64,000 nucleotides of DNA. Source: Balneolales bacterium. Lineage in GTDB: Bacteria; Bacteroidota; Rhodothermia; Balneolales; Cyclonatronaceae. Position 1 is the first letter of the stretch, and each line of letters starts with the position of its first letter. The translations under genes and the position numbers were made by a program. The notes beneath the pieces are model-generated. The model saw only the letters and a program-made list of their open reading frames with translations, was not told where the DNA came from and ran no database searches. The stretch lies in the NCBI GenBank assembly GCA_022565805.1, contig JAIULZ010000001.1:1-64000 (forward strand). Direction: 5' to 3'. Shown piece by piece: positions 26,180-63,683 of this stretch.

Positions 26180-29100
26180 TTACTTAACCAGCATCATTTT
26201 TTGTGTTTGAACGAAGCTGCCAGCCTGTAACCTGTACAGGTACATACCCGAGGCAAGGCGGTTAGCATCAAATACAACCGTATGATGGCCGGCATTCTGC
26301 TGACCATTTACAAGTACAGCTACGAGTTGTCCCTGCAGGTTAAAAACTTCCAGACGAACTTCAGAAGCTTCCGGCAGAGCATATGCTATATTCGTAGTTG
26401 GGTTAAACGGGTTAGGATAGTTTTGATTAAGCGCAAACTCCGTTGGCATATCCGTTTCCGGTTCGGTGCTTACACTCGAAACATTATTAAAGAAAACAAC
26501 ATCAAGAGTGTGGCTTTCGCCGGTTAGAGTAAGAATGCGGTTATTTGTACCGCCTTCGCCAACTGAATCGTCTTCCCAACCATCGTTAGGCAGGCTTCGG
26601 CCGTCTCCGGCAACAATAAAGTACTTGTACTCATGCTCCGATCCGGCTGGCTCTGTAAAGTGATGCACTACATGGTAAATGCCATCATCATCTGGTACAA
26701 GAGCCTCACCTTCAACAACCGACCAATCGTTAAAACTACCGCGAATATATACTTCATCGCCTACTTCCGGCATAAAGTTTCCTAAATCTTCCTGAATACT
26801 CATATCCAGTTTAAAGGTAATAGCCTGAAGATCTTCGTCATCGTGTAATACGGTAATAGTAACAGGTATTACAGCTACTGGCGTTGCAGGCGAATCGGTC
26901 TGCACTACTATTTCTGCATTGTAGGTTCCAGGCTCGAGTTCCTCTGCATTTAACGTTGCGGCAATGGCATCAGAACCTTGAGCTGCAATGGTACCAGAAG
27001 AAGGTTCGAAAGTAAACAGCCCGTCTCCGGCATTTCCTACTACATTCAGTACCAGGTGTGCATCCGGGAAACCAATAGAGCTGTAGGATGTGGGCTGTGT
27101 AATCCCGCATGCGTCCGACGCAATGTAAGATGGAGACGTTTCGCCGGCATCGTTGGTGCCGGGGAAGAAGTCAGATCCTGATTGCTCGAAAACAACAATT
27201 TCTACAACGAGTGTAGAAGCAGCAGGTACTTCGGCCTCTACAGGAATCGTAATAACCTGCAGATCTTGTGAGCTAGTTACTGTAGTTATCGAAGAGGTGC
27301 CGAGCAACGTCATATTACTGAAGTTCAGTGAACCTTCGAGAAGGTGAATTCTGGCCTCCATTGTAATTGTGCCGGTTATACTTTCAAGACCGAATTGTAC
27401 AGCCGAAACATCAAAGTCGCTTTCGACTCCAAAATCGGCGAGCGTATAGGTTCTCATATAGCTGTTTTCGGCAGTTCCTGCTGCGCTTCCGCAACGAACG
27501 CCGTTTAGCTCCTGTACTACTTGAGATACAGAATGAGATAGTACCAGTTCGTCGTTTAGTATGCCACGGTTAACAAAAGGAGCGTTCTCCACGAGTTGTG
27601 ATCTACCGGATGGCGGTGTGCTCATCAGGGATTCATTACCGGCAGAAAGGGTATAGCCCTGCTGTGCGTTATTACGGGCACGGCTTGTGCCATTTTCTGA
27701 GTTGAAAACGGTTGCCTCGCCAATAACGGGCACTATTCTGCTTTCATCGGCAACAATGCCACCTGAGATAGAATAAGAAAGATCGGCTTCACCTTCGTTA
27801 GATAGCGTAAAGCTAAAGTTAGTACTGCTGCCCTGTGCAACCGTAAAGGTAAAGCTATCTTGGTCTATGCTTAGCAGGCCGGGTACGATACCGGTTCCGC
27901 TTACATCTACAGTGGCGTCGCCTGCATTCGATTCGAATACAACAGTACCCGAAAATGAACCGGTTGAACCAGGAGCAAAAGTTATATCAACTTCTTCAGA
28001 TTCGCCCACTGCAAGTTCAAATGCATCGGCATTAACCTGAAACTCTCCGCTGTTGCTTACTACAGAAGTAACAGCCAACACATCTGTACCCGTATTTGTA
28101 ACCGTTACGGTTTGGGTTAATACCAGTCCTTCAGCAATTTGACCAAAATCGATAGATTCAGGATCAAGGCTGATTTCAGGTGACCCAATTACGGTGAGTG
28201 TGGCGGGTACATCTATCTGCGGATTCACAGGATCGTTACTGGTAAACACCAGCAGGTCTTCGTAAACGCCGCCGATCAAATCCATAGAATCGATCGTAAC
28301 CATAACAGAAACAGATGAACCGCTCTCTACCATACCGGATACTGGCTCTACGGCAGTAATAAACGGTACGGTAGGGGCAACGCCCTGTAATGTAATATTA
28401 CCAGACCATGTGCCACTTGGTGAAGTTGCCCATGCGTTTCCAATAGAAACATACAAGTCTTCTACATTAAGCGGGGTTGGAATATTAATCGTTGTTTGTA
28501 CGGGTGTGCCGGGTGTGCCAGTGTTACCTACGCCCCATACAATACGTGGTGTGGCGCCAAAGTCTGAAAACCCGCCAACCTGCAATACAACCGTTGCCGG
28601 ATCTATAGTCGAAGCATCTTCAAGGGGTACTGTTGAAAACAGAACGCCAAAGTCGCTGGCCCATGTACCGCCTTCAGATGCATTCAGAACAAAATCAGCC
28701 GAAACTGCTGTTAGTTCACCGTTCAGGTTTTGTGCTACGGTAATGAATTCGCCACCGCTTAAAGAAAGAGATTCAAACTCAACCAGGAAGCCGTCATCAC
28801 TAAGTAGAGAAGCGTCCTTATCTGCCTTGGAATCATTTTCTAATGATTCAAGGAAGCTTTGAACTCTGCTAAGCTGCTCAGCAGAAAGCTGGCTGGTGTT
28901 GCCGCTTCTTACCATTTCAGTTAGAGTTCTAAGCTGACTATTCTCGATTTCTTCCTGGCTTCCAGCCGTAGCTGAAATTAGGCGATTAATGAGCTTATCG
29001 CGCAGCATTAATGCTTCCCGGTCTGTATGCTGAAGCGCACGCGCTACGGCAAAATCGGGGAAGACAAACTCAAGCGATCCTGAACCTTCATTACTTACAG

Positions 29101-32100
29101 TAAGCTCTACCGTTGTAGAATCTCCTGCATCAAGTTCTGCACTGAGGCTTTCCGGGCTTACTCCTGCAAGTGGAGTTTCCACTACAGAAGCGGTAAGGGC
29201 AACACTAAGGCTTTCGTTATTTTCATCGTTAGAAGAAAAGCTTAGAGTGGCGTTTCTCTCGCCAAGCTCGGTTGCAGTAAACGTTACGGGTAACTCAACG
29301 CTTCCAAAAGGAGGCACTGTGAAATCATCTTCCGATACAGAAAAATCTGCATGGTCTACGGCAACATCGCTAATCTCAAGTACACCGTTTCCTGTGTTGG
29401 AAATAACCAGGGAAAGAGATCTTTCTTCTGATAAAAACAGCGACCCAAAGTCTAGCTCTTCGGCACTTAATTCGATGCTTACAGAGCCGGTTACGTTCAT
29501 TACAGCCGGCAGAATGAATTCTGGCTGCTGCGGGTCGTTACTGCTTATCAGGATTTCGCTTTCGTAGGTTCCGCCAAGATAGCCATCTGCATTAAATGTG
29601 GCGCTAATTTCGAGCGATTGTCCTGCAGCTACACTGCCCGAAGCTGGCGAAATATCTGTAATGAAAGGCATGCCTGTAGATATGCCACTTAAAACAACGT
29701 TTCCAGACCAGCTGCTCGATCCTCCCGGATCCCATCCGTGACCAATCCAAACGGTTATCCCTTCCATATCGAGCGGGCTTGGTATTTCTATGGTAGTTTG
29801 AACGGCTGTTCCAGGTGCTCCTGAACTACCAGTTCCCCAGGCGATGCGGCTACCTGCAGGGCCATAATTTGTTAATCCGCCCACTTGTAGTACTACACTC
29901 TCGGGAGAAACTTCGCCACTTGTCGTAAACAGAACAGCAAAATCGTTCGCCCATGTACCGCCATCGGCAGAGTTAATTACGAAGTCGGCTACAACGGCAT
30001 CCATTTCTCCGTTAAGTTCATTAGTAACCATCATAAACTCGCCGCCAGAGGCAGTGAAGTTTTCGAACTCGATGGTAAATCCTTCATCATTTAGAATTGA
30101 TGCTCCGCTGTTTCCAGCAGATGCTTCGGCATTAATTTGATCCAAATACTGGTTAATGATTCTTTCTTCATCCGTATTGGGGTTATTCAAATAGCCGTTT
30201 AGATAACGTTCTACCGTAAAACGGGCAAACGTATCGGCTTCGGTTGTTTCAGTTGCTACAGATGTAGCATGGGTACGAAGCAACGAAGTATATGCGGCAA
30301 ACGCCGGATCGTTGAGCAGAAGTCTTTCAGCAATAAAGGCAGGAAAGATAAAGTCGAGCGGACCGTCGCCTTCATTTATTATGGTGAAGGTTTCTACAGT
30401 TTCTTCACCGCCTGCAAGGGTAGACTCAAGTACCGACGGGTCAACCGCAATAGATGGCACCTCAGTACCGGCACCAAGCAGGCTAATAACTATATCGCCA
30501 GACTCGTTATTACCAGTAATGGTAAGCGATTCGTTGAATTCGGCGATTACATCTGGTGTAAAAGTAACTTCTACAGAACGGCTTTGGCCAGGTGCAAGAA
30601 TAAAGCCACCTGCATCAGAAACGCTGAAAACATCTGATGATGATGTAATAGCGTCGATTTCTGCCAGTGCTGTACCGTTATTAACCAGGGTGAAACCCAA
30701 GGTCTTGGAGTTATCACGAAAAACGTTGCCGAAATCGAGTTCATCTGCAGAGCTCGAAACAACCGCTTGACCACCTGCTGTTTGCAGGAAGAAATCGATA
30801 CGCTGCGATGTGTTGCTAAGGTCGTTACTGATGAGGTTAGTGTTCGCCTCATAAACGCCGGCAACAATCTCGGTTGCATCAAAGGTGATTGTTACTTCAA
30901 CAGATTCACCAACAGGAATAGAGCCGGATGCAGGTGTAATAGCGCTGATGAAACCAGGCGAATCGCTTACGCCAACAAGCTCTACAGAACCAGTCCAGCT
31001 GCTACTACCACCGGGGTTCCAGCCATGTCCCAACCAAATATGCAGATCTTCTACATCAAGTGGAGTAGGTATATTTATAGTTGTGTTTACAGGTGTGCCC
31101 GGCGCGCCAGACGAACCTGTACCCCATGGTATACGGCTGCCTGCAGGACCGTAAACGGTTAATCCACCTACCTGAAGAACAACAGATTCTGTGGTAATTT
31201 CGTCTGAAGTTGTAAACAGTACGGCAAAATCGTTCGCCCATGTTCCGCCTTCGGCGCTGTTAATTACAAAATCTGCAACAACGGCAGTTAACTCGCCGGA
31301 GAAACCATCACCAGTTACATCAAAAAATTCACCACCAGAACCAGTAAGGTTTTCAAATTCGATTACAACAGACTCATCGCTTTGTAAACCAGGCATATTG
31401 TTTGCCTGATCTTCTGCAATAAGCTGCTGGAAACGGCTGATTACCAGTTGTTCGTAACGGTTAGGCGTAGCAAGACTGCCATCTAAATAGCTGGCAAAAA
31501 TAGAACGCTCAGTCTTCTCGCGACTGCTGGAGGCACTGGCATAATCTGCTGTAACGCTGGTTTTAAGAGGAGCTGCATTTTCGCCGGTAAATAGTCTGTT
31601 ATTAACGTATGATGGGAAAATGTAGGTTAGAAGTCCTTCACCTGTATTACTTATAACAAGTGTTTGGTCTTCTGTTTCGCCAATTTCAACTTCTGCGCTA
31701 AATTGTGTAGCACTTAGACTTATTTCCGGAGAGCCATCTGTTGTGGCGCTCACTACATTAGAAATGTCGGAAAAATTGGCATAAAGGTCTCTGGCTTTAA
31801 TTGCAAAGTAGTAGGTTGTTTGTGGTTCTAAACCATCTACACGAACCTGCTCCAGTGTGCCTGAGGCCGAAGGGTTAAAGGGGAGATCAAATTGATCTGC
31901 GCTGTCGAAGTTACCAGCGTTTATCGGGCTTGTAGAAAAGCGTAAATCATATCCAAAAGCCTGGCCTTCATCTCCACTACTTCCCGGAGCGGTCCAGCTT
32001 AAATCAACATAATTTTCTGCTATAAATCCAACGGTTTGCAGATCCTGAATTGAGGCAGGCGGTACGCCATCATCTTCTTCTAAAGCGCGAAAAGCGTTTA

Positions 32101-33541
32101 CGCGACCGGCACCCATAAGCCCCTGGAAGTTTGGGTTTGCGGCTTCGATGTCATCAACTGTAAAAATCATGCGTTGCACGATTTCTTCGTTGGTGAGTCC
32201 CGGATATTTAGAGGCAACCAGAGCTGCAACACCTGCAGCGTGCGGAGATGCCATAGAAGTACCCTGGAAGAAGGCATAGCCACCAACATTGGTGCTTAGT
32301 ACCCCTTGATTGGCAACGGTATTGGTCTCGCCACCGGGGGCAGAGATATCTATCCAGGAACCGTATTGAGAGTACCATGCTTTTTGATCGTTATGGCCGG
32401 TAGAGGCTACCGCAATAACTTCCGGGTTAGATGCAATAGGCTGCGATGGGTTAGAACTGCCGTTATTACCTGCAGCGAAGAAAATAACACCACCCTGTAC
32501 CGGACCGGATGGGTTTCCGTTTTCATCGAAACCAGCATTATCACGGAAATAATCTATAGCATCATTGAGTACCTGAGAAAAACCACCGCCACCCCAGCTA
32601 TTGTTCGAAATTACTGCACCATTATCGGCACCGTAAACAAAACCCTGCGGGAAACCACCGGGGGTATTACCCGGACCAGAAAAAACTCTGGCAACCATAA
32701 TGCGTACACCTGCTTCATCGGCTGTACCACCTGCGATACCTGCAACACCAACTCCATTATCGTTACGTGCAGCTATTGTACCGCTTACGTGCGATCCGTG
32801 GCCGTCCTGATCCTGAATATTATTGGTATTGTTAACAAAATTCCACCCGTGAAAGTCACCATCGAAGCCGTTACCGGGGCCCGGAACCGGGTTTTCCCAA
32901 AGAACGCCCTGCAGGTCGGGATGATTTTGATCAAAACCGGAATCCATTACCTTTACGATAATATCAGAACTACCGGTAGTGAGTCCCCAGGCTTGAAACA
33001 AGCTAATGTCGGAACCAGGGGTACCGCCTGTCTGGCCGGTATTATTGTAGTGCCATTGCTCCGCCAGTCTGGGGTCGTTGAAATCCAGCAAATCCTGGAT
33101 TTCTTCGTTGTTTAAAACATTGCCAATGAGATGTCTCTTATAAATACGCTCGGCAACTTCTATTTCTGCAATAGAAGAAAAAGATTGTATAGCGGCATCG
33201 GTCGAAAATGAATTATCGAACTGAAGTCTGTACCAGCGGTCGAGGCCGTAAGCACGATGTCTTTCTGCGAATCGGGGGTCGGTTACAAACACCTGCTCCA
33301 TAGATTGTACGCTAAATTGGGCATTTAGTGCATCTATGGAGGATATGCCGGTTAACTGAGATGTTTCGCTCAATAGAGACGCGTCAAGCTGGTTTTTAGC
33401 CTGTTCGCTAATCTTTATTTTGATGTAGCCTTCGTGCCACTCAATCTGTTCCTGCGCAAATGATGCCGTAGTAAAGGCACCCGCGAGTAAAAGAAAGAAC
33501 AGCATCTTCAGACTAAACTTTATGGTTTCTGATAGATACAT
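26180..33541 (-). CDS. Secreted subtilisin-like serine protease with T9SS sorting domain
   Basis: A 2453-residue extracellular or surface-bound protease. Signal peptide 1-29; prosegment to about 150; peptidase S8 domain about 165-485 with Asp200 (VMDSGFD), His248 (DGHGS; His248 precedes Gly249), oxyanion Asn near 359-360 (AAGNNG) and Ser429 (GTSMASP), so the triad is complete. A fibronectin type III domain follows (500-605). Then come several choice-of-anchor/ASH-like beta domains in which a roughly 140-residue module occurs three times (about 722-858, 1153-1289 and 1584-1722). A carbohydrate-binding-like domain ([12 protein letters not shown], about 2260-2350) and a T9SS type A C-terminal domain ([12 protein letters not shown], then YLYRLQAG) end the protein. 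It is a single gene with its own terminator. It would need the type IX system, whose genes are not in the window. Confidence 0.93.
28374..28790 (-). repeat. Internal module 3 of the subtilase
   Basis: Third copy of the roughly 140-residue module marked by [24 protein letters not shown] and TTINIPTPL. It is the most divergent copy: GSRI/GHGW motifs are replaced by TPRIVWG and GNAW. The three copies recur every 1.29 kb. Confidence 0.8.
29674..30082 (-). repeat. Internal module 2 of the subtilase
   Basis: Second copy of the module, with [35 protein letters not shown] and [12 protein letters not shown]. It is very close in protein sequence to module 1. Confidence 0.85.
30966..31375 (-). repeat. 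Internal module 1 of the subtilase
   Basis: First copy of the module, with [35 protein letters not shown] and [12 protein letters not shown]. The strong likeness to module 2 suggests a fairly recent internal duplication or gene conversion. The tryptophan/glycine-rich loops suggest a ligand-binding beta-sandwich, possibly carbohydrate-binding (inference). Confidence 0.85.
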
Positions 33542-58142: not shown

Positions 58143-60644
58143 GTGTCTATTATACTTCGATTAATCTCCTGTCTTACGCTTTCAGCGGCCTTCCTTTTTG
58201 TTATTACTGCAGATGCAGTATCCCAAACAGTGCCACCCATTTCACCTGGTTCCGTAATCTCGAACCCCTTAGATCAGGTTCCTAGAGAATACCGAATATC
58301 TGCGGTAGATGTAACAGGAGCTGAAACCAGAAGCCCTGCCATGATTATTTCTACTTCGGGTTTGCAGGTGGGTGATCGTATTACCATACCCGGTCAAGCC
58401 ATTTCTGATGCAATTACCAGACTTCACCGCACAGGCCTTTTTTCTGATGTCCAGATTTATCAGGTATCAAGAACTTCAACAGAGGTTCATCTTGAAATTG
58501 AGGTTCGTGAACAACCTAGACTCGATCGCTTCGAAATTACCGGCCCAAGGAGATCGCAGCGAAGAGATTTACGTGATAAAATTCCTCTTATTCCGGGTTT
58601 TGCGGTTACCGAATCTTCCAAGGCTCAGGCTACTAATGTTATCATGCGCTACTATGCCGATAGAGGGTACCGGAATACAGAGGTAATAATTGTAGAAAAA
58701 GATTTCGATGATATTCGTAACAGGGTAACGCTTGAGTTTCAGGTAGATCCCGGAGACCGCATACAAATTCGCGAAATAGAGTTTTTTGGGAATGAGAACT
58801 TTACAGACAGACAACTGCGCGGAGAGCTGAAAGAGATAAAACGTACCAATATCTGGCGCTCTTTAACCCGGCAAACGTTCGATCGTGAAAGCTATCAGGA
58901 AGCAAAAGATAACCTCATTAAGTTTTACCAAAGAAATGGTTTCAGGGATATTCGCATACTTTCTGATACCGTGTTTGTATACGAGCATAACAGCAGAAGA
59001 GATGGTATTAGAATAGAAATTACTCTTGCCGAGGGCCCTCAGTATAAGGTGCGTAATATTACGTTTGATGGAAATACAGTCTACTCAGACGATCAGCTAC
59101 GCGCTGCCTTGGATTTCCAGACCGGTGATGTGTTTAACGAAGAGCGTTTCAATCAAAATATGTACGGAAATCGCAGAAATAACGATTTATATGCGATGTA
59201 CCACGATATCGGCTATCTGTTTCTCCGCGAAGAAACAGAAATTCGTAATGTGCCGGGCGACTCTTTGGATATACACGTAAATTTAATTGAAAACGATATC
59301 GCGACTATACGGCAGGTCGAGTTTATGGGAAATACGAAAACCCATGATCATGTTGTACGCAGAAATCTTAGAAATCTGCCCGGTAATAACTACAGTAGGT
59401 CTGCAATTCAAAGATCTGTAAGGGAACTTGCAACGTTAGGTTATTTCGTGCCTGAAAATATTATTCCGGATTTAGACCCCGATTTTGAAAACCGCACTGT
59501 AGATATTTTTTATAGTCTGGACGAATCAGCTGGCTCAGATAATTTCGAGCTTTCAGGTGGTTTTGGAGCAAGAGAAATTGGCGTAATTTTGTCGGCCAGA
59601 ATTAATTTTAATAATTTTTCTGCAGCTAATATGTTTAACGGCGAAGCATGGAGACCTCTTCCTAGTGGAGATGGGCAGCGTTTATCCGTAGGAGTGCAGC
59701 TCACTGGTCGTGGCTATCGTAGTTATAATCTGGGTTTTCAGGAGCCATGGTTATTTGGTCGGCCAAACTCATTTGGTATTAGCGTTTCCTATAGTTTCTT
59801 CTCTCAGGCAAACTTTAACCGCTTCTCTGATATCAATAATCAGTTCGAACAGTTTTTGGTGAATCTCACCTTAGGGCGAAGACTTACTTTCCCAGATGAC
59901 TTTTTTACGCAAACCACGCAATTGCGCTATCAAATGTTTGAATCCAGATTTCAAACAGGCCTTATCGAAGGCGGTCGCTCCCAAACCGTATCCATGCGTT
60001 TAGGTTTGAATAGAAATTCATTGGATAACTTCATTTCACCCAATAGTGGATCTACATTCGATGCTGGAGTTGAATTTGCGATTCCAATACCTGGTTTAGA
60101 TCAGTTTTATCTGGCCGATATTAGTTTTACGCAGCATATCCCTATTGTTGGGCGCCTTGTTGCTTCATCAGGTTTTGAGTACGGATACCTCGGGTGGTTT
60201 AGCGACAATAATCGTAGCCAATATCAGCGTTTCTATTTGGGAGGAACTCAACTTCAGCAGCAGCAAACATTCTTCCAGAACAATATTGATCTTAGAGGGT
60301 TTCCGGGTGGGCGAAACGGTTCTATTTCTCCATATATAGGAAATGAGGCCATCGGCGGAACTATTTACAGTAAGTATGCCGCTGAAATAAGGTACCCGGC
60401 CGTTAGCTCAGATCAGATACAGCTTATTCCGTATCTGTTTTTTGAAGCTGGAAATTCATACAGAGATTTTTACGAATTTGATCCTTTCGATGTGAAAAGA
60501 TCTGTTGGCCTTGGCGCCAGAGTATTTCTGCCGATTTTAGGTCTTATAGACCTTAGCTACGGCTATAGACTTGATGGTATCCCGAACACTCCGGTCCGCC
60601 CGGGTCAGTGGGAGTTTCTGTTTAATATCGGCGCTCCATTTTGA
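58143..60644 (+). CDS. bamA: Outer membrane protein assembly factor BamA
   Basis: Central barrel of the BAM machine that inserts outer-membrane proteins. The 833 residues start with a signal peptide (to about 28), then five POTRA domains (about 45-470), then a 16-strand barrel. The lid-loop motif is LRGFPGGRNGS, the BamA (V)RGF variant, and the C-terminal strand ends GQWEFLFNIGAPF with terminal Phe (beta signal). There is no ATG between the in-frame stop at 58110 and the signal peptide, so the start is the GTG at 58143. Four OmpH genes follow. A copy of the last part of this gene occurs at 61362. Confidence 0.97.
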   Translation: MSIILRLISCLTLSAAFLFVITADAVSQTVPPISPGSVISNPLDQVPREYRISAVDVTGAETRSPAMIISTSGLQVGDRITIPGQAISDAITRLHRTGLFSDVQIYQVSRTSTEVHLEIEVREQPRLDRFEITGPRRSQRRDLRDKIPLIPGFAVTESSKAQATNVIMRYYADRGYRNTEVIIVEKDFDDIRNRVTLEFQVDPGDRIQIREIEFFGNENFTDRQLRGELKEIKRTNIWRSLTRQTFDRESYQEAKDNLIKFYQRNGFRDIRILSDTVFVYEHNSRRDGIRIEITLAEGPQYKVRNITFDGNTVYSDDQLRAALDFQTGDVFNEERFNQNMYGNRRNNDLYAMYHDIGYLFLREETEIRNVPGDSLDIHVNLIENDIATIRQVEFMGNTKTHDHVVRRNLRNLPGNNYSRSAIQRSVRELATLGYFVPENIIPDLDPDFENRTVDIFYSLDESAGSDNFELSGGFGAREIGVILSARINFNNFSAANMFNGEAWRPLPSGDGQRLSVGVQLTGRGYRSYNLGFQEPWLFGRPNSFGISVSYSFFSQANFNRFSDINNQFEQFLVNLTLGRRLTFPDDFFTQTTQLRYQMFESRFQTGLIEGGRSQTVSMRLGLNRNSLDNFISPNSGSTFDAGVEFAIPIPGLDQFYLADISFTQHIPIVGRLVASSGFEYGYLGWFSDNNRSQYQRFYLGGTQLQQQQTFFQNNIDLRGFPGGRNGSISPYIGNEAIGGTIYSKYAAEIRYPAVSSDQIQLIPYLFFEAGNSYRDFYEFDPFDVKRSVGLGARVFLPILGLIDLSYGYRLDGIPNTPVRPGQWEFLFNIGAPF

Positions 60645-61361
60645 TCTTAAATAAAAATTGAAGCTCATGAAAACCAAATTCAGAACAGGCAGTCGCCACA
60701 TTTTTATTGTGGCACAGTTCTTTTTACTGGCCTTACTAATCGGTTTTCCTTCGCTATTGAATGCTCAAAACCAGAGAGTTGGGTACATCGACTCAGATTT
60801 TATTCTTAGCAAAATACCTGAGTATGAGGACGTAGAAAAGCGGTTAAGAGAACTTGCTCAGAAGTGGAGGGAGGAAATAACCGAAATGGAAGGCGAAATT
60901 GAAACTCTTCGGCAAGAATTTGAAGCCCGTGAAATTTTATTTACTCCGGAAGTGCGCCGGGAAAGGCAGCAGGAAATAGATAATAAACTACGTGAAAGAG
61001 AACGTTTCATAAATAGTCGCTTTGGTCCCGATGGAGAATATTTCAGGCAACAGCAGGAGTTACTTCGTCCATTACACCAACAAATAGATGAAGCTATGAA
61101 GAAAATAGCAGAACGAGATGGTTACGATTTTGTATTCGACCGAAGCGGTGATTATGTGTTTTTTTATACACGCAGGCAATGGAACCTTAGCGTAGATGTA
61201 TTGTTAGAGCTAGGGATACAGGTAGAAGAAGATGTTTTGCCATAAATGTTCTCCATAGTTGTACCATAAAGATCGACGGATCGTTATATTTACCAGCCCA
61301 TTAATAAGTGTGATTATTTAGTTCATAAAAGCCGTAGAATTATAATATTACAACATATTGA
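60599..61361 (+). repeat. Tandem duplication, copy 1 (bamA end plus ompH1)
   Basis: This unit begins within the last codons of bamA (CCCGGGT at 60599) and runs through the first ompH and its downstream flank. It is repeated directly at 61362-62110 with an offset of 762 bases. Both flanks and the gene align. Confidence 0.85.
60667..61245 (+). CDS. OmpH/Skp-family periplasmic chaperone, copy 1
   Basis: Exported 192-residue protein of the OmpH/Skp family, periplasmic holdase chaperones that deliver unfolded barrels to BamA. Signal peptide to about residue 34 (GFPSLLNA-QNQ); YIDSDFILSKIPEYE opens the mature part; a long charged coiled coil (about 65-145) forms the tentacle; and FVFDRSGDYVFFY is the body. 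The start is the ATG at 60667, not the TTG at 60658. By eye it is about 79% identical to the next copy (40 differences in 192). Confidence 0.92.
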   Translation: MKTKFRTGSRHIFIVAQFFLLALLIGFPSLLNAQNQRVGYIDSDFILSKIPEYEDVEKRLRELAQKWREEITEMEGEIETLRQEFEAREILFTPEVRRERQQEIDNKLRERERFINSRFGPDGEYFRQQQELLRPLHQQIDEAMKKIAERDGYDFVFDRSGDYVFFYTRRQWNLSVDVLLELGIQVEEDVLP

Positions 61362-61408
61362 CCCGGGTAATTGGAGTTCTGTTTTAATATCGGCGCACAA
61401 TTTTTGAT
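61362..61408 (+). pseudogene. Relic of the 3' end of bamA
   Basis: About 47 bases match the end of bamA (60599-60645) from CCCGGGT through AATATCGGCGC to TTTTGATCTTAAATAAAA, with small indels. The frame after the PG(N/Q)W codons is disrupted. It was carried along when the ompH unit was duplicated. Confidence 0.85.
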
Positions 61409-61428
61409 CTTAAATAAAATTAAAGCTC

Positions 61429-62007
61429 ATGAAAACCAAATTCAGAACTGGTAAAAACTGCATTATTTATGCAGGGCAATTTTTATTGCTGGTTTTTCTA
61501 GTTGGTTTTCCTGCGCTTTTAAATGCTCAAAATCAAAGATTAGCGTATATCGACACAGATTTTATTTTTAGTAAAATACCTGAATATGAAGGCGTAGAAC
61601 AGCGTTTAAGGCAACTTTCTCAGCAGTGGAGGGATGAAATAACCGAGATGGAACGCGAGATAGAAAGCCTGAGACAAGAATTTGAAGCCCGTGAAATTCT
61701 TTTTACACCGGAGGTAAGAAGGGAAAGACAGCAGGAGATAGACAATAAAGTTAGGGAAAGAGAACGTTTCATTAATAGTCGCTTTGGTCCCGATGGAGAT
61801 TATTTCAGGCAACAGCGGGAATTACTCAGGCCCATACAACGACAGATTGTTGAAGCTACAAATAAAGTAGCAGAACGCGACGGTTACGACTTTGTTTTTG
61901 ACCGTAGTGGCGACTTTGTGTTCTTTTACGCTCGCCGGCAATGGAACATCAGCGTAAATGTATTGCTGGAGCTTGGCATACAGGTAGAAAGCGATGCTTT
62001 ACCATAA
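61429..62007 (+). CDS. OmpH/Skp-family periplasmic chaperone, copy 2
   Basis: 192-residue paralogue made by tandem duplication of the preceding gene. The signal peptide regions differ most, while residues about 82-108 (LRQEFEAREILFTPEVRRER and beyond) are identical in both. All coiled-coil and body features are kept and the frame is intact, so it is probably functional. The leader before the gene is the duplicated end of bamA. Confidence 0.92.
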   Translation: MKTKFRTGKNCIIYAGQFLLLVFLVGFPALLNAQNQRLAYIDTDFIFSKIPEYEGVEQRLRQLSQQWRDEITEMEREIESLRQEFEAREILFTPEVRRERQQEIDNKVRERERFINSRFGPDGDYFRQQRELLRPIQRQIVEATNKVAERDGYDFVFDRSGDFVFFYARRQWNISVNVLLELGIQVESDALP

Positions 62008-62122
62008 AAGTTCTTCGTAGCTCTACCATAAAGTTCGCCGGATATCGTTATATTTACCGGCTGATTAATGAGCCCTTATTTTAGCTCGTTTAAGCCGTAT
62101 AACTACAATAAAGAAATCATTT

Positions 62123-62644
62123 ATGAAAAAACTGATATTAGCTGTATTTCTGATCCTAATTGGCGCAGGTCAGCTATTGGCACAACAACGTATTGGCTTT
62201 GCCGAACCTCAGCTTATACTCGACTCAATACCCGAACGCGATAGAATAGAGCGTGAACTTGAACGTTTTTTTAATGAATGGGAAAACGATTATGAGAACC
62301 TGTATGAGCGTTATAGTGAAGAGTTGTTTTTGTACCAGGATAGTCGTGCGCAGCTTAGTGAAAGCCAAATCAGACAGGAAGAAATGCGCCTAAGAGAAAT
62401 GGCAGAAGAACTTGAGTTTATGCAGCAGGAGTTCGGTATGGTATTCGAACAAAAAAGAGCCGAGCTTTTGGGACCGGTTGTAGAAAGAATAAACGAAGCA
62501 ATCGCAACTATTGCGCGACAAAAAAACCTAGATTACGTGTTTCAGTCCGAGACCAGTAATGCAGAACCCATGTTCTTTATTATCAAAACGAATCCTAATG
62601 CAATTAACATCACCGACGATGTAATTGCGCGTATGAATCCATAA
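62123..62644 (+). CDS. OmpH/Skp-family periplasmic chaperone, copy 3
   Basis: A 173-residue more distant paralogue: signal peptide to about 20 (LLAQQ), RIGFAEPQLILDSIPERD, a long Glu/Arg coiled coil and DYVFQSETSNAEPMFF. It is shorter than copies 1 and 2. The next gene's ATG lies 17 bases after its stop, indicating cotranscription. Confidence 0.88.
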   Translation: MKKLILAVFLILIGAGQLLAQQRIGFAEPQLILDSIPERDRIERELERFFNEWENDYENLYERYSEELFLYQDSRAQLSESQIRQEEMRLREMAEELEFMQQEFGMVFEQKRAELLGPVVERINEAIATIARQKNLDYVFQSETSNAEPMFFIIKTNPNAINITDDVIARMNP

Positions 62645-62661
62645 CCAAATTGACATATCTC

Positions 62662-63222
62662 ATGAAATACGTTTTTACTAAGACTGTATTATTTTTTGCA
62701 GCTGCATCTTTAATTATGTTTGCTGCTCCCTCTCAGTCTTCGGCTCAAGAATTAAGAATTGGTATAGTTGATGCCGGTGAGATTCTTATGCAAATGCCGG
62801 AGCTAACTACAATTTCCGATCAGCTCGATGGTTTCACGAATCGTAAAAGACGTGAATTTGCCCAACTTGAATCCGAGTTTGTGCGTGCCAGAGAAGAATT
62901 TGAGCAGAAAGTAGCTGTAATATCAGAATCAGCGCGACAGGCAGAGCAGGAAAGGCTTTCTCAGAAGGCGCTTAGACTGCAGCAGTTCCAGCAGGAATAC
63001 CAGCAGGAGTTAATGCAACGTCAGGAAAACCTGATTGCACCGCTTCGTCAGAGAATTCTCGATTCTATTAATGAAGTGGCTCAGGAAATGGGATTAGCCT
63101 ATGTTATAAACCGTATGGTGAATAATGGCGATATGGTTGTTCTTTATGCCTCCGAAGAAATGATGCAAAATTATGATGTTACCAGAAGAGTTAAGCAAAA
63201 AATGGGCATCAGAGAGAGATAA
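62662..63222 (+). CDS. OmpH/Skp-family periplasmic chaperone, copy 4
   Basis: A 186-residue paralogue with signal peptide (cleavage near SSAQ), LRIGIVDAGEILMQMPE, a glutamine-rich coiled coil (QQFQQEYQQELMQRQ) and LAYVINRMVNNGDMVVLY. The start is the ATG at 62662; a TTG four codons earlier is ignored. It is the last gene of the bamA group and is followed by an intrinsic terminator. Confidence 0.9.
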   Translation: MKYVFTKTVLFFAAASLIMFAAPSQSSAQELRIGIVDAGEILMQMPELTTISDQLDGFTNRKRREFAQLESEFVRAREEFEQKVAVISESARQAEQERLSQKALRLQQFQQEYQQELMQRQENLIAPLRQRILDSINEVAQEMGLAYVINRMVNNGDMVVLYASEEMMQNYDVTRRVKQKMGIRER

Positions 63223-63683
63223 AGCCATTTGAATAGCTCTATCTTTATTTTGCCGGCTTGCTCGCTCTTGTTTGTTAGTAACCTGTTAACTCATAAAAGC
63301 TTTTAGGTTTATAATAAAAAAGGCTGATTTCTATAAAGAAGTCAGCCTTTTTTTGTGCATGTAATTTATATCCTGAATTATTCACAAATAACGATGGATT
63401 GATTGACTACATCGCTTCATCCATTAGTTAGAGATGATCAGATAAAGTATAAAGTTCTATTTTACTCAGCAAAATTTACCTTTGTACTGCCATATCTGTG
63501 AAAGGTTTTGCTCAATATAATCAGTAAGGTTTCCGTCACTATTTCTCAGACGCCCTGTCTAAACCCATATTTCTTGGTGAATAATGCCGTTTACAAAACG
63601 TTCAAAATTGACCTTGAATACTTAATCTTTTGTCTTTCAGGAAATAGTGAAGTGAGTTTAGAAATTGTGCCTTAACAAAAATT
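63223..63683. other. Convergent spacer with terminator
   Basis: About 460 AT-rich bases between the convergent ompH4 and DUF420 genes. Apart from the terminator at 63316-63354 I see nothing in it. Confidence 0.4.
63316..63354 (+). terminator. Terminator of the bamA-ompH group
   Basis: GGCTGATTTC (63322-63331) pairs with GAAGTCAGCC (63338-63347) with one G-U pair. A's lie on the left and seven T's on the right, so it may also work on the opposite strand. Confidence 0.88.

Follow-up and report, generated by a model that had tools for sequence, protein, structure and literature searches.

Tandem duplication of a skpA-like gene beside bamA in a Balneolales bacterium and the uneven divergence of its copies

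In the genome of a Balneolales bacterium the gene bamA is followed by two closely similar genes of the OmpH/Skp family, and a stretch resembling the end of bamA stands between them. How this arrangement arose, whether both genes have been kept by selection, and which of the known Skp proteins they correspond to are the questions raised by the locus. Small genes are often duplicated in tandem, and the case described here is genuine, clean and ordinary in kind; what is new is the identity proposed for the gene (skpA) and the unequal divergence of its copies. The locus also makes a good worked case, as it offers a readable breakpoint, single-copy outgroups within the same genus and two copies that are both alive.

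The locus lies in a window of 64,000 nucleotides, positions 1 to 64,000 of contig JAIULZ010000001.1. The bacterium is presumably of a soda-lake type; the genus Cyclonatronum belongs to Balneolales. A sequence-only reading of this window had proposed that a tandem duplication starting inside bamA produced a second ompH. This article describes the extent of the duplicated unit, its distribution among related genomes, the selection acting on the two copies and their relation to the Skp protein of the Type 9 secretion system (T9SS).

The duplicated unit and its boundaries

The intact bamA (58143-60644, forward strand, as are all the features of the locus) encodes an Omp85 protein with POTRA repeats (Pfam POTRA and Omp85, both above cut-offs). 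A repeat finder and pairwise alignment placed two head-to-tail copies of ~762 nt at 60600-61361 and 61362-62122, and the proposed distance of 762 bases from ATG to ATG proved to be exact (60667 and 61429); the repeat finder returned a 300-nt core at this same spacing. The unit opens with the final 45 nt of bamA and continues through a leader of 22 nt and an OmpH-family gene into a 3' flank. In the first unit these are the end of bamA itself (60600-60644), the leader (60645-60666), identical to that of the second unit at 20 of 21 aligned bases, the gene A1 (60667-61245) and a flank of 116 nt (61246-61361). The second unit holds a dead copy of the bamA 3' end (61362-61406), the gene A2 (61429-62007) with its leader, and a flank that also forms the leader of the next gene, B, and the right end of the unit (62008-62122).

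Similarity begins at the motif CCCGGG (60600 and 61362), within the last 45 nt of bamA, whose stop codon occupies 60642-60644; the left breakpoint does lie inside bamA, as had been claimed. On the right it reaches at least to 61347 and 62108 and possibly to 61361 and 62122, the latter directly before the start codon of the next gene. The duplication junction, between the A1 3' flank and the bamA-tail copy, was placed at 61361/61362, where the alignment ends, with an edge that is uncertain by a few bases. No microhomology longer than 1-2 bases is visible at the breakpoint in the alignment, in which later divergence would mask short stretches.

The likeness of the flanks is well beyond chance. 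The bamA tail and the intergenic stretch align with a score of 49, compared with a mean of 14.8 and a maximum of 30 in 5,000 dinucleotide-preserving shuffles, and none of 5,000 other pieces of the window of the same size reached that score. The two 3' flanks align with a score of 77 (shuffle maximum, 29). A 91-nt probe running from the bamA tail through the gene start has two sites in the 4.47-Mb genome, both at the duplicated locus. At the nucleotide level the units are homologous through the bamA tail, leader, gene and 3' flank, which agrees with the earlier claim that both flanks align and adds the 3' flank to the unit; the degraded bamA end is likewise present and significant, but it measures ~45 nt and not the ~47 given before. 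Direct repeats that lie side by side and carry non-genic flank, as found here, are the mark of a tandem gene duplication by local recombination or slippage.

The bamA-tail copy before A2 carries four single-base indels (two bases lost and two gained relative to bamA), which break the reading frame, so that it cannot serve as a working bamA end. This decay bears on the proposal that the bamA-like flank serves as a regulatory element under constraint and is no scar of a duplication, a reading which the near constancy of the leader and first seven codons would suit. We regard it as scarcely credible, given that the bamA portion can be aligned with the coding sequence of bamA and has decayed by indels, and that in relatives the same stretch is found only inside bamA.

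The array contains four OmpH-family genes and not two, as had been read from the sequence; they start at 60667, 61429, 62123 and 62662 and are the only members of the family in the genome. A1, which adjoins the intact bamA, and A2 both encode proteins of 192 aa and both exceed the curated cut-off of PF03938 (104.4 and 101.6 bits; cut-off, 32.4 bits), followed by B (62123-62644, 83.4 bits) and C (62662-63222, 91.3 bits), the last gene of the array. A count of 40 differences in 192 residues between A1 and A2 (79% identity) bears out the estimate previously made by eye. Downstream of C, a strong inverted repeat (63316-63353) with 17-nt arms that are 94% complementary, a loop of 4 and flanking runs of A and T is likely the terminator of the bamA-skp operon.

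Two further features of the units were observed. The leader and first seven codons (60645-60686 and 61407-61448) are nearly the same in both, differing over 42 nt by a single substitution and a single indel, unlike the remainder of the signal peptide, which has strongly diverged between A1 and A2; this near-identity may reflect a constraint on the translation start. A 14-mer, TCGTTATATTTACC, is perfectly retained in both 3' flanks (61281-61294 and 62045-62058). The 15-mer containing it has no further exact match in the genome, and on that ground its reading as a genome-wide motif was rejected; it is possibly a promoter or processing element, or a product of chance.

The unduplicated state in relatives and the age of the copies

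Nine genomes of the same family (five congeners and four others) show the order bamA-A-B-C with A, B and C each in single copy, and the order bamA-A1-A2-B-C occurs only in this genome among those compared. When A1 was used as a query against 60 relatives, matches were obtained in 57, none of which has a second A-type gene in tandem. The second match to A1 reaches 333 bits here (A2), compared with at most 68 bits for the next OmpH gene elsewhere, with the exception of one relative's draft, G052. In this draft two full sets of the Skp triad lie on different contigs (C226 and C154); it has a listed contamination of 7% and is probably a mixed bin. In a survey of 129 genomes of the order, at least four OmpH hits were counted in 21 others, the extra ones being located elsewhere in the genome, weak, or fragments at contig ends, and no other tandem A pair was found in these 129 genomes. 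The duplication is specific to this lineage among the genomes compared.

A chimeric assembly, fused at 61361/61362 from two related strains or species so that everything from A2 onward belongs to another genome, would also place two A-type genes side by side. The source assembly is a draft of 290 contigs, the ends of the unit coincide with the possible join, and G052 provides an example of a related draft with two triads, probably by contamination. Nevertheless, a chimera is highly improbable: the bamA tail before A2, with its four indels, would be unable to end a working bamA in any donor, the genome has no second bamA-skp cluster and its only four OmpH genes are all at this locus. In addition, the listed contamination is 0, base composition (GC and GC3) is uniform from bamA through A1, A2 and B to C, and the contig spans 189,652 bases.

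By inspection, the bamA-A leaders and A-B spacers of the nine same-family genomes bear no visible resemblance to those of this genome, and therefore the likeness of the flanks between the two units, ~78-95% identity in the leader and 3' flank, is attributed to common descent. The A-B spacer is also longer here, ~115 nt (61246-61361 and 62008-62122) compared with ~35-85 nt in the nine family genomes.

A codon-aligned DNA tree joins A1 and A2 as sisters with support of 96/99, and a protein tree groups them too, but with support of 69/76; the trees rest on 11-13 sequences. In the DNA tree the path between A1 and A2 amounts to 0.31 substitutions per site, compared with 0.82-0.89 to the nearest congener, which indicates that the duplication took place well after the split from the sampled congeners and yet is not recent, as the sequence-only reading had judged. 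Synonymous sites are saturated against every available relative, which precludes dating the duplication by dS; the pairwise dS of 0.8-1.0 between the copies is likely inflated, with 0.48 at four-fold sites and 0.25 in the 3' flank. Gene conversion between A1 and A2 is not supported, since neither the longest run of identical codons (8) nor the runs at synonymous sites are unusual (p 0.35, 0.12 and 0.34).

The weak joining of A1 and A2 in the protein tree would be compatible with an older, genus-wide duplication that was later lost from every other sampled member. Such a history is most improbable, because it would need several independent losses, because the DNA tree joins the copies firmly, and because their leaders and 3' flanks are still so much alike while the spacers of relatives are unlike them.

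Selection on both copies and their uneven divergence

The pairwise dN/dS between A1 and A2 is ~0.13, with values of 0.12-0.15 over three methods, and the differences are distributed over the codon positions as 29, 17 and 69. Since one constrained copy alone could give a low average dN/dS, the copies were also examined individually. A branch codon model did not formally reject omega = 1 for A1, since synonymous changes could not be assigned to A1 or A2; the saturation of synonymous sites relative to every congener leaves the model unidentifiable. The indels are more informative, with ~8 events in 170 nt of flanks and none in the 576-nt genes, neither of which contains a stop. A copy drifting since the duplication would be expected to have accumulated 8-14 indels and ~2-4 stops, and the probability of its showing no indel is 2e-4 to 1e-6. 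The lack of indels and stops in the genes, despite the indel-rich flanks, indicates that both copies are constrained and have been kept, and the earlier description of two intact and retained genes holds.

The alternative that A1 is a young pseudogene, open by chance, draws on three of its residues, which are changed although invariant in 19 orthologues, and on an omega that the branch codon model could not resolve. It is nonetheless very unlikely in view of the 576 nt without indel or stop beside indel-rich flanks and of the 69 out of 115 differences that fall at third codon positions; moreover, in neutral simulation with at least 57 substitutions a single copy gains ~36 residue changes at the least, along with about two stops.

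Under selection on both copies, A1 and A2 have not changed equally. When the differing sites of the mature proteins were polarised against seven relatives, 14 were derived in A1 and six in A2, with eight unclear, an asymmetry which taken alone is not significant (Tajima tests, p 0.03 to 1). A1 alters G55, Q58 and Q137, which are identical in all 19 other aligned orthologues, whereas A2 has no change at such invariant sites in the same alignment. A single 24-residue stretch holds eight of the 14 sites derived in A1, a clustering with p 0.005 when compared with random sites and p 0.024 when labels are shuffled among the polarised sites; the stretch had been spotted before testing. In a predicted structure (mean pLDDT, 86.8) the cluster corresponds to the helix that runs back to the body after the conserved FGPDG turn.

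The residues kept suggest that A2, the copy bearing the scar, is the more ancestral in protein sequence and that A1 is diverging in one helix. The more ancestral state of A2 runs counter to a view of the second ompH as the new copy. The claim that the scar reveals the origin and direction of the duplication is not supported: the scar marks only the left breakpoint, and it cannot tell copy from original because both products of a tandem duplication are equally old.

Relation to SkpA and the Type 9 secretion system

The best solved-structure match of A2 by sequence is SkpA of Flavobacterium johnsoniae (PDB 8gl8 chain G, E 4.5e-25); B matches the same chain at E 9e-8, and C has no match to it in the same comparison. 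The predicted A-type fold also finds 8gl8 as its best match (E 1.8e-11), and Skp of E. coli (1sg2) ranks behind it at E 4e-4. SprA is encoded once in the genome (SprA_N, 300.8 bits), along with 111 T9SS cargo tails (Por_Secre_tail) at E <= 1e-5. The sequence and fold matches, together with the presence of SprA and T9SS cargo, argue that the genes labelled 'ompH' are better read as skpA, with a presumptive SkpA function here; B is a possible counterpart of skpB. The window also encodes a giant T9SS cargo protein at 26180-33541 on the reverse strand, in an open frame of 2,453 aa that ends in a match to PF18962, the T9SS sorting tail (47.2 bits). The counts do not support an expansion of T9SS cargo as the driver of the duplication: although this genome has the highest number of tails (111), its density per Mb is roughly that of one congener, which has 97 in 4.0 Mb.

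In F. johnsoniae the SkpA trimer encloses the N terminus of SprA and is required for normal T9SS export and gliding (PMC10994853). According to the discoverers of SkpA, the biology of Skp in Bacteroidota is not understood (PMC10994853). Two jobs are possible for SkpA: to form part of the Type 9 translocon structure, and to act as a general chaperone.

The locus is very probably the result of a single tandem duplication of a ~762-nt unit in this lineage, with both copies under selection, both being counterparts of SkpA, and A1 diverging. One illegitimate duplication event, after the split from the sampled congeners, would have copied the stretch that opens with the last 45 nt of bamA and closes directly ahead of B, and thereby given rise to the order bamA-skpA1-(dead bamA tail)-skpA2-B-C. 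The leader, carried along in the unit, would have made the second gene translatable from the outset within the bamA transcript. Purifying selection has since then acted on both copies, which by sequence and predicted fold appear to be counterparts of SkpA, the chaperone that as a trimer forms part of the Type 9 secretion translocon. It is A2 that most likely retains this translocon role, and A1 seems to be diverging in one helix.

A division of work between the copies, whose trimers would be either mixed or distinct, is conceivable: A2 would serve the Type 9 translocon, and A1, which is changed in its returning tentacle helix (residues 124-147), would serve another client or position. This is a tentative idea that we consider rather unlikely. 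If true, the translocon or the chaperone pool would be built from two specialised subunits and not from one. A natural skpA duplicate frees one copy to vary at otherwise fixed positions and in this way points to residues worth testing.

Among known systems, the closest likeness is to F. johnsoniae SkpA (Fjoh_1689), part of the T9SS extended translocon (8gl8), which shares with the A-type genes the Skp hairpin-and-body architecture. The genomic setting is also the same, as skpA of F. johnsoniae sits at the bamA locus (PMC12611786) and its operon includes a second, apparently essential Skp homologue (PMC10994853). The systems differ in that two tandem SkpA-type copies are present here and one there, and in the two more Skp-family genes, B and C, that lie downstream here. 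F. johnsoniae SkpA has 341 aa and a C-terminal extension, described relative to P. gingivalis SkpA and no defining trait of SkpA proteins, and the contact of the PorV-contacting helix is not essential (PMC10994853); A1 and A2, with 192 aa, end after the body domain and do not have the extension. The bamA-ompH-ompH-ompH arrays of other Balneolales have the same order and the same downstream B and C, whereas here the first gene is doubled and a scrap of bamA stands between the copies. Skp/OmpH of E. coli belongs to the same family (PF03938) and has a similar fold, but identity to it is only ~15% and the A-type gene is closer to SkpA.
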